Source: Doris montereyensis (Eukaryota; Mollusca; Gastropoda; Nudibranchia; Dorididae). From it: a stretch of 64,000 nt of DNA. Below the pieces are notes generated by a model that did not search any database, had not been told where the DNA came from, and saw only the letters and a program-made list of their open reading frames with translations. The stretch is taken from contig JAXRKP010000682.1 in assembly GCA_037039925.1 (NCBI GenBank), positions 1 to 64,000 of the forward strand, given 5' to 3'. The position numbers and the translations under genes are program-made. Below, in pieces: positions 44 to 9,300 of this stretch; positions within the stretch are counted from its first letter, which is position 1; the number at the start of each line of letters is the position of its first letter.

Positions 44-322
44 CTGGACATGCATCCACTTGAAGGATTTCAGCATAAGAATTATTGCCTGCATCTCTTC
101 TTTAATACCAGGGAAAGCTCTAACATAGTATGGATACATCATTTCATCGTCTAGTTGAGAACTTCCGGCTCTGTAGCCAACAAGGGGCCGTTTGAGAAAG
201 TTCATCAGTTCGGCAACTGGAATCGTCAGTGGTGATGTGTGAGCCCCAGTGTAAGCTTCAATGGTGAGAGGATCCAATACATTATTTCCATCTTTGTGTA
301 TTTTTACAATGCCACGTTGCAC
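44..322 (-). CDS. Receptor exon 11 (left): ligand-pocket part of second flytrap domain
   Basis: 93 codons, phase 0 at both ends, acceptor TTCTACAG and donor GTCCAG|GTATAG. Encodes VQRGIVKIHKDGN, then YTGAHTSPLTIPVAELM, RPLVGYRAGSSQLDDEM, MYPYYVRAFPG and SFKWMHVQ. The layout matches exons 4 and 5 of the first domain, but the serine loop is GAHTS instead of GPSSS and the Ser-Thr strand is YRAGSSQL. The mirror exon would lie beyond 64000. Confidence 0.85.
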
Positions 323-3300
323 CTGTAGAAATTAGAAGGGGGTGATTTGGGATTATTTGTTACTTCTTGCAATAAATAACTTCAGTCAGATTTAAGGCTT
401 CATATTTTCTGTGCATGTTGGTTTATTTATTGATGGAGTTGCTACATTCATAATTTTAGGATTTTGTGTAGAATTTTGACTGCCCTTGGCATTCTTGAAA
501 ACAGTGTGTACAGCCACTACCATAATGCAAATAATATGCACCCATACATCCAGGATTAAACCCCATTATTTATTGTGAGAAGCATTTGAACCACTACAAC
601 ATTAACCCACTTGAGTCGTCATTTGGAGCGGAAAGAGTTAAATTTCCATCAATCCATCTCCCCACCAAACACACACACACACAGATGGAAACAATAGCAA
701 AACAAATAATTAAAAAAGAAAAAGCAAATATCGAATCACTGAAAGATAAAACCTATAGAAGGCTTACAAAATAAAAACTGTAACAGGAACTTAGAATAAT
801 TGAGGAAAATTAGAATGCAGTCTATAAAAATAGTCTTAAAATAAAATTTGATTAGAAAAACACAATGCTTATCCTATGTTCTCCTGGGAAAAAAGGGGGG
901 TGAAGAAAAAAGAGGATGACAATACAAGAGATATTATCGTGTTCCACTTGTACCAAAATCTCACCTGAGCAATAAAGGCTGGTCCAAACGCAGGGCTACT
1001 GCAGTCATCAATGCCCAGACCACCAAGTTTTATACCTGGCAAAAGGGCATTGTCGTTGTTTATACTGTTAATGGCATAGATCATTGCTTCCATGTACATA
1101 ACCTGGTTTGGAGTCCTGTTGGATGACAACAAAAATGGATTTCAATGCAAAACTCAGTGGAAAAAAATATTGCTTTAAATCATGATGGGCACTATATGAT
1201 TCAAGGTATCCAAAGTCAAGATTGATGGACACAAATAGCTTGAATATTTGATAATAATAATAATAATAACAATAATAATAATAATAATAATAATAATAAT
1301 AATAATTCTTTCTTTCTTTATGAGTTCCCATTCTACCTTTCGGTGTATGGGTTCAGATGCCCGAGATGATCTTTCCCCAGGATGCCCTGTTCTGGCATTT
1401 TCTGTTTCCTTCCAAAAATATTAAATTTCTATGTTTCAATGCCTCTTTTATATCTTCTTCCCAGTTTCTCCGAGGTCTATCTTTTGGTCTTTTACCTTAG
1501 GATTTAACACTGTATACTGATTAGCCATCCTATTGTCATTCATTCTGTTTACATGCCCAAACCATCTCAATTGATTTGTTTCTATCTTAGGTTTTATGCC
1601 ATCTGCTTTGGTTTGATCTCTTATTGTTGTGTTTCTGATTTTGTTACTTTTAGCTTTCCCTACTACACTTCTTAGATATTTTATTTCAGCTGCCTGTACT
1701 CTACTGTATTCCCAACTTGTCTAAAGTCCAAGTTTCCGCTGCCATAGAGGAAGTAGGATAATAAACTGTATTGTATACTGCTGTTTTGGGTTTTGTTGAC
1801 AATTCTTGTATGCACCTACAAATGTCTTTCCTGAGGGTTATATATTGCACCTTTTGGATTCTCATTTGATTTCTTCTCTTATTTTTCCTCTGAGTTAATC
1901 ATTACTCCTAGTAATTGTAGCTTTAGTTTATTCTAAATTTTCTTGTCCAATTTAGATTTTTGTGTTTGCTTCCTAGTTACTAGCATTGTTTTGGTTTTCT
2001 TTGCATTTTACTCATTCTTCTTTATTTAGCTCATTGTTCATAATGTTGATATTAGATTTGAATGTCACTTTCTGATTTTCCAAACAGAGCTAAAATCATA
2101 TTCAAATAAAGCATTGATGCATTTACTGGTTTGAGCTTGCACATACCACATTCAATTTTCTTCAGCATGAGGATGCCTTTGCGACTGAATCCATAAATGT
2201 GATAAACAAAGATTTAGGATACAATCCTGTCTTACTCCCATGTCTACATCAAATTCTTCAGATATGTTTCCAAAGCTACTCTCACTGCACTTGTTGATTT
2301 GTGTAAAAACCGTTAATGGCTTCTATCAAATTTGCTGTACATTGTGTTCTTTTAAGGAATGCCATAGTTCGTCACTCTCTCACAGTGTCAAATGCCTTTT
2401 CTAGATCAATAAAACACAGGTGCAAGTCAATGTTTCTCTCAAAGAATTTTTCTATTATTTGTCTAATTGTAAATGTGTGGTCTTGTACACTTCTTCCTGG
2501 TCTAAATCCCCTCTGATGCTCTTCAATCTGATCTTCTACTCTTTTCTAGTCTCATTTCCAGTATCTTGGCATATACTTTTCCTGGACGCTAAGCAGTGAT
2601 ATCCTTCTATAGTTTGAGCATTCCATAGTTGATCCTTTCTTTGTATTGGTACTACCGTTCCCTTTTTCCAATCCCTCTGACACCTGTTTGGACTTCCATG
2701 CTTGTTATTGCATGTAGTAGTTTGTCTGCCTCTCTCCCTTGGTTTTTAATCATTTTCTGGATAAACTTGATCTGCTCCTGGGGCTTTCTAATTTGAATTT
2801 TCTTATAGCTGTTTGGATTTCTTTCCATTGATATATCACATCTTCAGCTGTCTTTTCTGGATTACTTGTTAATCTTACTAATTGATATTTACTCCTTGTT
2901 TCATATGTTCTGGAGGGATTGTGTAATTGTTAAAGATACTTTCTCCACATGTTTCCATGATATGGCTGTCTTCTTTCATTATTTCTCCTTTGGCATTCTT
3001 AATTTGTCGTATTGGGCATACTTTGGTCTTTCTCATGCTCTTGATTGCCCCTCAGAACAGCTTTTGATTTCTTTGATAGCTTTCTTCAAGTCTTTGTCCA
3101 AACTCTTTCCAGTGTTCTATTTTGCTTTCTAACTTCCTCTTTGGCGATAGTTCTTTTATTCACGTAATCTATCCTATTCTCTCGCATCTTTGTTTGCAAG
3201 TATTTCTTCCAGGCATTTTCTTTTCTCTGATCTTAGTTTTGACATTCTCATTCCACCATGCTGTTATTTTCCTATCTCCTTTTATTTGTGTCCTATCACA

Positions 3301-6300: not shown

Positions 6301-9300
6301 TTTTAAGGAAATTTGAGGGCAAAACGCTTTGTAAATCTTAAGTTTCTAACTGATTACCAACACAGATTATTGAAAAGGATTTTCATTTGAAAATTATTGT
6401 AGTGACAGGAAGTCTCCGACTCTGCTAGCATTGGTACATTAGTAGAAAACAAACTCACTTGAGATCCCCACATGATAATGGGGCTGGTCCCATGTTATGG
6501 AGAGAGAAAATGCCGTTGATGACAATATCTCCAGGTTCATAGAAATATTTTGTATCTGCAGGAAGACCAACACAAGAGGAGCAACCACTGCTTGGGCAAA
6601 GGGATGTTGGAAAAGGCTGGATTCGTTGCGTGCGGGTTTCACTGTACATACCGATATTGTTTAGGTTTACATCCAAGTTTCCATTGATATACGTGCCAAC
6701 CTTAGATTACATTCAGATGTATAAAAGACAAGAGAAACTTGTTAAGGACAAGACAAATTGTATTATAAAAAAAGAAGTGACAAAATTATAATAATCTCAT
6801 ATCATTGTTTTTGCTTGCTTCATCAAGGGATCAGAAGACTAATTTGCGTGTTTGATCACCAATATTCACCAATTCTTTAAGGGCATGAGTACTGATCTGA
6901 ATGTCTTACACATGGCATTATGAAATTTCCAATGAGTCTGTATCTTGAAAAAAATCTCAAAGCTTTTTAACTACCTCCAATAAAACTAGATGCTATTTCC
7001 AATCTACCCAAAATTGGGATCAAGAAATTTAAAAAAAATCATGTTAACATTTACTTTCCATATCCTAGGAAAACCTAAAACAGTGAAGAGAGTATCAAAG
7101 CACACCTTTTTTGTTTAACTCCTCTTGAAACCCCTTAGACAACCTAAAACAGTGAAGAGAGTGTCAAAGCACACCTTTTTTGTTTAACTCCTCTTGAAAC
7201 CCCTTTGCACATTTGTTGGAAAAATAATAACATTTGTTGGATTAATAATTAGTAATGGAGAAAATACGATAAAAATATTGTATATCAGCAATTTGAACAT
7301 TTTCAACTCTTTTTGGTAAAAACTCTCTACCTGCCTACCTTCCTCCCTCCTTCGTTCCCTCCCTCATTCCCACCCCCACCCTCTCTCTCTGTGTCTGTCT
7401 GTCTGTCTGTCTGTCTGTCTGTCTGTCTGTCTCTCTCTCTCTCTCTCTCTCTCTCTCTCTCTCTCTCTCTCTCTCTCTCTCTCTCTCTCTCTCTCTCTCT
7501 CTCTCTCTCTCTCTCTCCCTTTCAATCAGTAAATTAACAGAAAAGGAAGTAGAAAATCACAATCACAAATAATGACTGATTTATTAAGATTTACCCACCC
7601 TTCTAAATTTGAAAGTGCTTGCTCCAGCTCCGGTTTCAATGTTATTGAAATTCCAGACATAAAAACTAGGATTTTCAATGTCACCGTTGTCATCAAATGA
7701 CAGTCTCTTGGCAGCCAGATATGGCTCATAAATATTAGGAGGCCAAGCTTGGAACCCTCTCATCCCAGTGAATGTGGAAATCCACCTAGAATAAATAAAT
7801 TGGAAAAAGTACATTAAAAAAAAGGGTAAAAACAGAAAAACAGGTAAAAACAAAAAACCAGGCCTATTCTCATTTTATATTTTCTTATTTTACACAAGAA
7901 TTGAATACACCATAGGTTGCTTATCAGGTAACATTGTAAAAGGAAAAAAAGTCAACATTGTCAAGGATGATCTACCATAGTAATGCTCTTTATACAGCCA
8001 AATCAAAGTGTGATAAAATAGCATATAAGATAAGATGAGATAAGATAAGATAAAATGAGGAAAGATAAAAGATTGACTAGATCCAGTGTTTGATTTGATT
8101 TGATTTGATTTGATTTGATCTAGACTTTACCAACAACAACAACTAAGATGACTTCTGGGATTTTGGTAGAATTTCTTATTTTTCCTGGACTGTATAACAG
8201 CCACAGGATCTTTAACGTGGCCAAGGTGTTGTGTTCTACTCCTGGGATCTCCTTTTTATCATCCAACTTGGACTGGGGGGGGGGGGGGAAGGGAAGGGGG
8301 GATACTAAAACAAAACTTTGGAAACTTTTCATACACCTGCCAACAGATTTGAATCCTCAATCTTTTGACAATACACAATAAGATTGAGAGGTCGACACCA
8401 ATAAGATAAGAGGATGTTGCCTCTGGACTACAAAGTGTTAGAAAAGACACAATAATATAAGAAAGATGTTAGAAAACAATAAAGTAATATGAAATGTTAC
8501 ATCTATATTAAGATATAAGAGGCTAGAAAGGACAATACACAATAAGATAAGAAGATGTTGAGAAAGGACAATACACAATAAGATAAGAAGATGTTAGAAA
8601 AGGACAATACACAATGTTAGAAAGGACAATATAAAAGTAAGATACAAAGATGTTGACAAATCTAAGGATACAAACATCTCAAAAGCTGACTTAAGTCTTA
8701 GTGAATGACTCTCTAAAAGCATATAAACTCAGGCATCATCTATATTTATAAATGACCTAACTTTGAGCATATAAACTTATATTTTGACCCCCATAAGGTG
8801 GTTGTCAAATAGAAGTTCTTAGTGAATGAATTATTGGATCTGATCAATATTTGAACTGATTGGAAAAAGATTGTTTGCCTGCGATCGAGGAAACTTTTTA
8901 TTGATACTAGATCTAATTCATCAATTTCCAGTCAAAAGCTTGTGTATCAGTATTGTGTATTGATTTGACCTCTTAATTGTACTTGCTATCACCCATACTC
9001 CATACAGTGGTTTATGACTACTGCAGTCAAAGTTTGAGAGACTCTGCTATATTATAACGAGAAATCATAATCCACTATTGCCTCCGGGCATGCTTGTTAT
9101 GACTATTAGCTGAAAAGGCAAAAGGGCCCATACATGATGTCAAGAGAAGAAAAGAACATGCCACTAAAGAGGCATGGTTAGTTCAAAACTGAAGAGACAG
9201 TTCAATCTGTCTGAGACCTAATACTATGACATCATAACACATCAATTAAATATTTACAATAAAATAAATAAACATCACAAAACTCTTTCACATACTAATT

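Follow-up and report, generated by a model that had tools for sequence, protein, structure and literature searches.

The 5′ end of a probable five-flytrap class C receptor gene in the nudibranch Doris montereyensis

Exons and domains at the locus

The window analysed here, 64,000 nucleotides of contig JAXRKP010000682.1 from the nudibranch Doris montereyensis (assembly GCA_037039925.1), carries exons of a class C G protein-coupled receptor (GPCR) gene in which two Venus flytrap (VFT) domains follow one another in the same chain. With a probability of roughly 0.75, which also covers the mechanism proposed in the Discussion, we read the locus as the 5′ end of a gastropod, apparently heterobranch-like, class C GPCR gene with five VFTs. 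In a single reading frame, the window encodes all of VFT1, one three-cysteine stub and then lobe 1 of VFT2. The DNA is folded into an inverted repeat: the gene runs on the minus strand in the left arm, is mirrored on the plus strand in the right arm, and exits the window at base 1 or at base 64000, respectively.

The junction between the two domains lies in a single minus-strand exon of the left arm (6459–6700; the right copy has two indels), in which one stop-free frame leads from the last strands of VFT1 through the stub CPSSGCSSC into the VFT2 N-terminus GDIVINGIF. It is preceded by the C-terminal exon of VFT1 (7599–7785, minus strand, with three indels relative to the right arm; right-arm copy 57001–57186, plus strand, in frame with its neighbours) and followed by two VFT2 exons on the minus strand, one ending in FIAQ (965–1115; right copy 63698–63848, one substitution) and one encoding VQRGIVKIHKDG...FKWMHVQ (44–322, no right copy in the window). 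These four exons, numbered 8 to 11 in the original prediction, have AG/GT splice sites and, as had been proposed, compatible phases; neither arm by itself allows an unbroken reading of the gene, as indels occur in both.

Six further VFT1 exons and the first coding exon were located upstream. The first coding exon was identified by tblastn with the N-termini of related proteins (E down to 2.6e-11 among the matches listed) at 45594–45788 on the plus strand of the right arm, with a left-arm copy at 19040–19235 (minus strand); it encodes a start codon, a signal peptide recognised by eye and the VFT1 N-terminus, and is broken by indels in right and left arm alike. Next on the plus strand of the right arm come an exon ending in ITLG (46386–46496, AG/GT sites, phase 1; left copy 18331–18441), the exon with the loop cysteine discussed below (46902–47021) and the exon with the equivalents of Ser165, Thr188 and Asp208 of mGlu1 (48270–48436), whose left copy (16411–16575) lacks two single bases. 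The exon with the Tyr236 equivalent was taken from the minus strand of the left arm (14113–14394), its last base being found only in the right arm. Two plus-strand exons of the right arm complete the set: the lobe 2 exon (52514–52745; left copy 12086–12317), for which an earlier start at an upstream AG (MTLVWT...) was rejected because the later AG fits length and phase, and the exon at 54961–55189. The left copy of the latter (9643–9871) has two indels and an in-frame TGA (~9680). A recoded TGA was considered at this site and rejected, since the right arm has no stop and reads through.

Six right-arm and four left-arm exons, leaving aside the first coding exon, were joined into a model of 667 residues. 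A Pfam search of this model recovered two ANF_receptor (PF01094) stretches, as the original prediction had anticipated, with a whole-protein E value of 1.4e-53; scored separately, VFT1 reached 7e-35 and the VFT2 part 4.4e-18. The best matches in the PDB were the metabotropic glutamate receptors mGlu3 for VFT1 (2.6e-29) and mGlu7 for the VFT2 part (1.5e-21), and the PDB class C receptors had one matching stretch per chain among the best 60 of 98 and the best 60 of 90 matches.

Relatives with five flytraps

Homologs were sought in three protein searches that ranked only the ~8,000 candidates with the most shared words, so the hit lists are incomplete. Heterobranch snail proteins of ~2,850 residues, which comprise five tandem VFTs and one class C seven-transmembrane (7TM) domain without a nine-cysteine domain, matched the window protein at 51–53% identity, the junction being part of the match. 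P0001 of Candidula (a partial model of 1,344 residues, 53% identity over the whole query) and P0011 of Elysia have three flytraps each, and P0012 of Plakobranchus has a third and part of a fourth. After VFT3, P0011 (Elysia crispata) continues into a tandem repeat of units like PRRAGFDPRPNHPVNKWADALTL at the expected start of VFT4, which is probably a gene-prediction error running through a repeat. A search with P0012 gave at least 41 hits from snails, limpets, abalone, clams, cephalopods (Octopus, Argonauta) and the nemertean Lineus, the weakest one listed being from the shrimp Penaeus (6.8e-49). The 7TM family PF00003 was named for 37 of the 41 and missing from the domain lists of P0001, P0011, P0023 and P0053. 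The hits are annotated as "uncharacterized protein", "hypothetical protein", "unnamed protein product" or "metabotropic glutamate receptor 3", and UniRef tags some of them as GPCR family 3.

Pfam scans showed five ANF_receptor stretches and one 7tm_3 domain in P0017, P0018, P0019, P0040 and P0046; across these five mollusc and nemertean proteins the 7tm_3 E values ranged from 1.4e-25 to 1.3e-36. The best PDB match for the 7TM of the relatives was mGlu3. Because a self-blast of P0017 at E 1e-3 revealed no internal repeats, the flytrap repeats were sought by a local profile, iterated twice, in 45 sequences including the window protein, with a stretch counted if more than 300 of 447 positions were covered. 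As a result, 28 of the 45, with lengths of 2,689–3,067 residues, contained five flytrap stretches; the other 17 were fragments, split or partial models, or the shrimp protein. The five-flytrap design recurs in a second group of paralogues, ~24–28% identical to the window protein: P0044, P0045, P0046 and P0051, placed by the tree described below, and P0049, placed by identity only.

These proteins bear directly on whether the window holds one gene. That two separate neighbouring class C genes were falsely joined across an intergenic gap might be suspected from the fact that each flytrap scores as an ANF_receptor by itself, and some public models are indeed split on one contig (P0001/P0050 of Candidula; P0002/P0024 of Bulinus). 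Against this, the junction lies within one exon, neither a start codon nor a hydrophobic leader was seen by eye between the domains, and Biomphalaria P0019 and Lymnaea P0017 contain the corresponding 95-residue segment inside their chains at 67% identity. The junction is likewise internal to open frames from the 'lgn' source, where 10 of 11 proteins (2,689–2,893 residues) run uninterrupted on contigs of 8,573–11,087 bases, of which 213–2,474 lie outside the coding sequence; the eleventh is a partial of 2,027 residues. As the window gene has many introns, the ten contigs are best explained as transcripts. Two neighbouring genes, the outcome named at the outset as fatal to the tandem arrangement, are thereby ruled out for the relatives, and for the window gene we find them scarcely credible.

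The five-VFT plus 7TM architecture is close to certain for the relatives and very likely for the window gene. The central claim of the original prediction, tandem flytraps in one chain, stands. Its count needs revision: the window does show a complete flytrap followed by lobe 1 of another, and tandem ANF_receptor domains with one 7TM were found in molluscan proteins as suggested, yet full-length relatives have five flytraps and not two.

Cysteine stubs and loop cysteines

The predicted order of two flytraps, a Cys-rich domain and then a 7TM was not borne out. In 13 proteins read along their length, each VFT is followed by a three-cysteine stub and then by the next VFT, and the segment joining the last VFT to the first transmembrane helix likewise has three cysteines. 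The stubs deviate after VFT3 in P0044 (one cysteine) and after the third VFT of the shrimp protein P0054 (two). The nine-cysteine domain (NCD3G, PF07562) was not found at E 0.001 in six long relatives (P0017, P0019, P0040, P0018, P0046 and P0054), nor in the domain lists of the 41 hits or by inspection of the 13 proteins. As a control, this family was named in the lists of the canonical receptors P0005, P0006, P0009 and P0013–P0015, and canonical P0004 scored 20.7 bits, below the Pfam cut-off of 38.9. This result concerns the relatives, the corresponding region of the window gene lying beyond the window.

A cysteine in one VFT loop showed a strongly positional pattern. Among the 28 five-VFT proteins it is present in VFT1 of 27 and in VFT5 of all 28, and in none for VFT2, VFT3 or VFT4; in the window it is present in VFT1 and absent from VFT2. 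The same loop holds a cysteine in mGlu3 and in four of four canonical controls. In the available text of PMC4977154, the calcium-sensing receptor (CaSR) forms an inter-subunit disulfide via C129 at the tip of helix C, and we take the loop to be the likely counterpart of that site. If so, the pattern points to contacts made by the first and last flytraps of the chain.

A different possible geometry takes up the intramolecular dimers suggested by the original prediction: VFT1–VFT2 and VFT3–VFT4 would pair within one chain and VFT5 between chains. Class C flytraps normally function as dimers, and the ~35–60 residues between profile matches could permit the pairing. However, VFT2, VFT3 and VFT4 of all 28 proteins have no cysteine in the loop that belongs to the known dimer face, and an AlphaFold2 model of VFT3–VFT4 (pTM 0.52) did not fix their relative orientation or give confident packing; the VIA-align rows, being single-domain alignments, are uninformative on packing. 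Neither point is decisive, and we regard intramolecular dimers as rather unlikely.

History of the array

A tree was built from 92 flytraps belonging to 17 of the 28 five-VFT proteins, the window (two domains) and five canonical receptors; the other 11 five-VFT proteins, P0049 among them, lay outside it. Each VFT position formed its own clade (support 1.0 for VFT1, 0.037 for VFT2, 0.999 for VFT3, 0.977 for VFT4 and 1.0 for VFT5), and the five clades united apart from the canonical flytraps with a support of 0.997. The window flytraps grouped with VFT1 and VFT2, the former beside the sampled heterobranch snails. Position-specific profiles gave the same assignment for the window and placed the domains of partial proteins in the expected order. 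Bivalves, a cephalopod and a nemertean have the same five-flytrap design. From the position-wise clades and the profile assignments we therefore infer that the array probably arose by internal duplication before the mollusc/nemertean split.

The arthropod protein P0054 (Penaeus chinensis) has four ANF_receptor stretches and a 7tm_3 domain, with a VFT1-like first and a VFT5-like last domain; by profile its domains were assigned as VFT1, VFT2 or VFT4, an ambiguous third, and VFT5. On this evidence the five-flytrap design may reach back to early protostomes.

Ligand pocket

The alpha-amino-acid signature of mGlu1, five residues named in the available text of PMC2680970, was scored at the positions of Ser165, Thr188, Asp208, Tyr236 and Asp318, accepting conservative changes. 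Four or five of these residues were kept by VFT1 in 22 and by VFT4 in 23 of the 28 proteins; the corresponding numbers were 7 for VFT3, 4 for VFT2 and 9 for VFT5. The tyrosine of VFT4 is usually gone, being V or I in 20 of 28. The window VFT1 keeps four of the five, reading S, T, D, Y and N. The column of the Lys409-type side-chain residue, where the alignment is loose and all four canonical controls have gaps, contained R 11, A 4, L 3, Q 3, K 2 and S 2 times in VFT1 (the six commonest, n = 28), with L in the window. These residues suggest that a small amino-acid-like ligand is likely in VFT1, glutamate itself not specially so; the predicted ligand class is moderately supported.

The pocket residues also speak to whether the protein signals at all. 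It could be a surface or matrix protein in which the flytrap stack acts as a sink for ligand or as a rod for adhesion, the 7TM being a mere anchor, in keeping with the loss of most of the signature in VFT2, VFT3 and VFT5 and with a diverged 7TM, which scores 91–127 bits to 7tm_3 in the six long relatives versus 168 for canonical P0004. Since 7tm_3 is nevertheless recognised with the E values given above, the 7TM family is listed for most hits, and VFT1 and VFT4 mostly retain the signature, a non-signalling role appears distinctly unlikely.

The inverted repeat and the reading frame

By blastn, the left arm of the inverted repeat spans 811–27324 and the right arm 37479–64000, the long pieces being 94–99% identical. 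The arms of this giant repeat measure about 26–27 kb, the spacer about 10 kb, and one- and two-base indels dominate the differences: the four longest matching pieces (~25,600 bp) show 306 substitutions between the arms together with 427 gaps, of which 325 are single-base. Across ten exons (1,917 bp, leaving out the exon at 44–322), 16 indels and 8 substitutions separate the arms. The frame breaks at differing sites in the two arms, and neither arm alone gives the whole reading frame; eight of the ten exons are open in at least one arm, and a ninth (14113–14394) borrows its last base from the other arm.

A decaying pseudogene might be suspected from such a density of exonic indels, from the broken frame of the first coding exon in either arm and from the in-frame TGA near 9680 in the left arm. 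That explanation is very unlikely in view of the frame kept by at least one arm in most exons, the different positions of the breaks, the AG/GT sites at the splice sites used and the ~50% identity maintained to intact relatives. In addition, the exons contain proportionally fewer substitutions (8 in 1,917 bp) than the four longest pieces do. We read the indels instead as probable errors of a noisy long-read assembly, overlying two real copies or haplotypes. The inverted repeat itself may reflect either two haplotypes that the assembler fused head to head or a recent duplication in inverted orientation.

Other features of the arms were also noted. Reverse-transcriptase-like fragments, recognised by eye, lie in receptor introns of both arms (1308–4300 and 5365–5780, mirrored at ~59000–63400), and a distinct second reverse-transcriptase-like region, likewise recognised by eye, lies upstream of the first coding exon (43000–44300, mirrored at ~20500–21800). 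Intronic short tandem repeats and a long CT microsatellite occur at 10243–10421, 17345–17625 and 7380–7520.

Discussion

The receptor would be built in the order signal peptide, five units of a VFT and a three-cysteine stub, and 7tm_3, with no nine-cysteine domain. In the proposed mechanism, an alpha-amino acid or another small ligand of that kind would bind chiefly in the membrane-distal VFT1, VFT4 would be a second candidate pocket, and VFT2, VFT3 and VFT5 would mostly act as rigid or allosteric spacers or as pockets for other ligands. Two chains would pair, probably tethered at VFT1 and VFT5. The short cysteine-bonded stubs would relay closure at the tip along the stack as far as the 7TM bundle, the part expected to couple to a G protein. 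A bolder version, to which we give somewhat less than an even chance, is that of an ancient new GPCR class, present since the mollusc/nemertean split and perhaps since early protostomes, in which each chain would stack five flytraps, the loop cysteines of VFT1 and VFT5 would lock two chains together at either end, and the inputs of VFT1 and VFT4 would be combined, making the receptor a multi-input chemical integrator.

Several points weigh against the five-flytrap receptor and its mechanism. VFT3–VFT5 and the 7TM of the window gene lie beyond the window, its downstream half being drawn from the relatives, and the identification of the 'lgn' contigs as transcripts is our own interpretation. The VFT2 clade is nearly unsupported, and the node joining the five VFTs with four canonical flytraps has a support of 0.537. 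Window VFT1 has Asn at the Asp318 position, and VFT1 retains just two or three of the five signature residues in 6 of the 28 proteins. The modelled VFT3–VFT4 pair has a low pTM.

Compared with known systems, the closest resemblance is to mGlu2 and mGlu3, which share the VFT fold and sequence, the class C 7TM and most of the VFT1 pocket signature. They differ in having one VFT and a nine-cysteine domain, as against five VFTs and three-cysteine stubs in the relatives described here, and the Lys409-type residue of mGlu receptors is, as far as the loose alignment allows, not conserved in VFT1 of the relatives. GABA-B receptors are obligate heterodimers with one VFT per chain and no cysteine stubs. 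They are class C receptors without the nine-cysteine domain, according to the available part of PMC12716839, an absence shared by the five-VFT relatives. The calcium-sensing receptor, whose C129 bridge (excerpt of PMC4977154) was compared above with the loop cysteine of VFT1 and VFT5, differs in having one VFT and then a full Cys-rich domain. Venus kinase receptors are invertebrate proteins whose mGlu-like VFT has a Ser165-type residue (PMC2680970, in the part available), but they combine one VFT with a tyrosine kinase domain and have no 7TM. The truncated SmGBP of Schistosoma mansoni, another unusual invertebrate mGlu relative (PMC3206071, available text), is a single Venus flytrap module without a 7TM. 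Two tandem Venus flytraps per chain also occur in BvgS. The same number is found in one chain of the bacterial kinase EvgS (PMC8174306, available portion); both proteins are bacterial and have a histidine kinase output, and the likeness drawn here concerns layout.

The receptor is a variant within class C GPCRs and not a member of the mGlu family proper, because the single flytrap and the nine-cysteine domain of that family were looked for in the relatives and not found. No description of a class C receptor having several flytraps was recognised in the titles and abstract openings of the open-licence literature, which is weak evidence, and a study of class C VFT evolution (PMC2670285) contains neither the word 'tandem' nor the names of the pocket residues.

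The Cys-rich domain is described as essential for the activity of mGlu receptors, T1R and CaSR in the available text of PMC12716839, and a receptor without it would offer a natural test of the role of that domain. Furthermore, a five-flytrap receptor raises the questions of how a signal travels through the stack and whether several ligands are summed in one chain. The genes occur in well-studied animals, including Lymnaea, Biomphalaria and octopus, making bench work feasible at once. Common to molluscs, a nemertean and, in part, a crustacean, the five-flytrap receptor represents an unusual and apparently old, conserved design.

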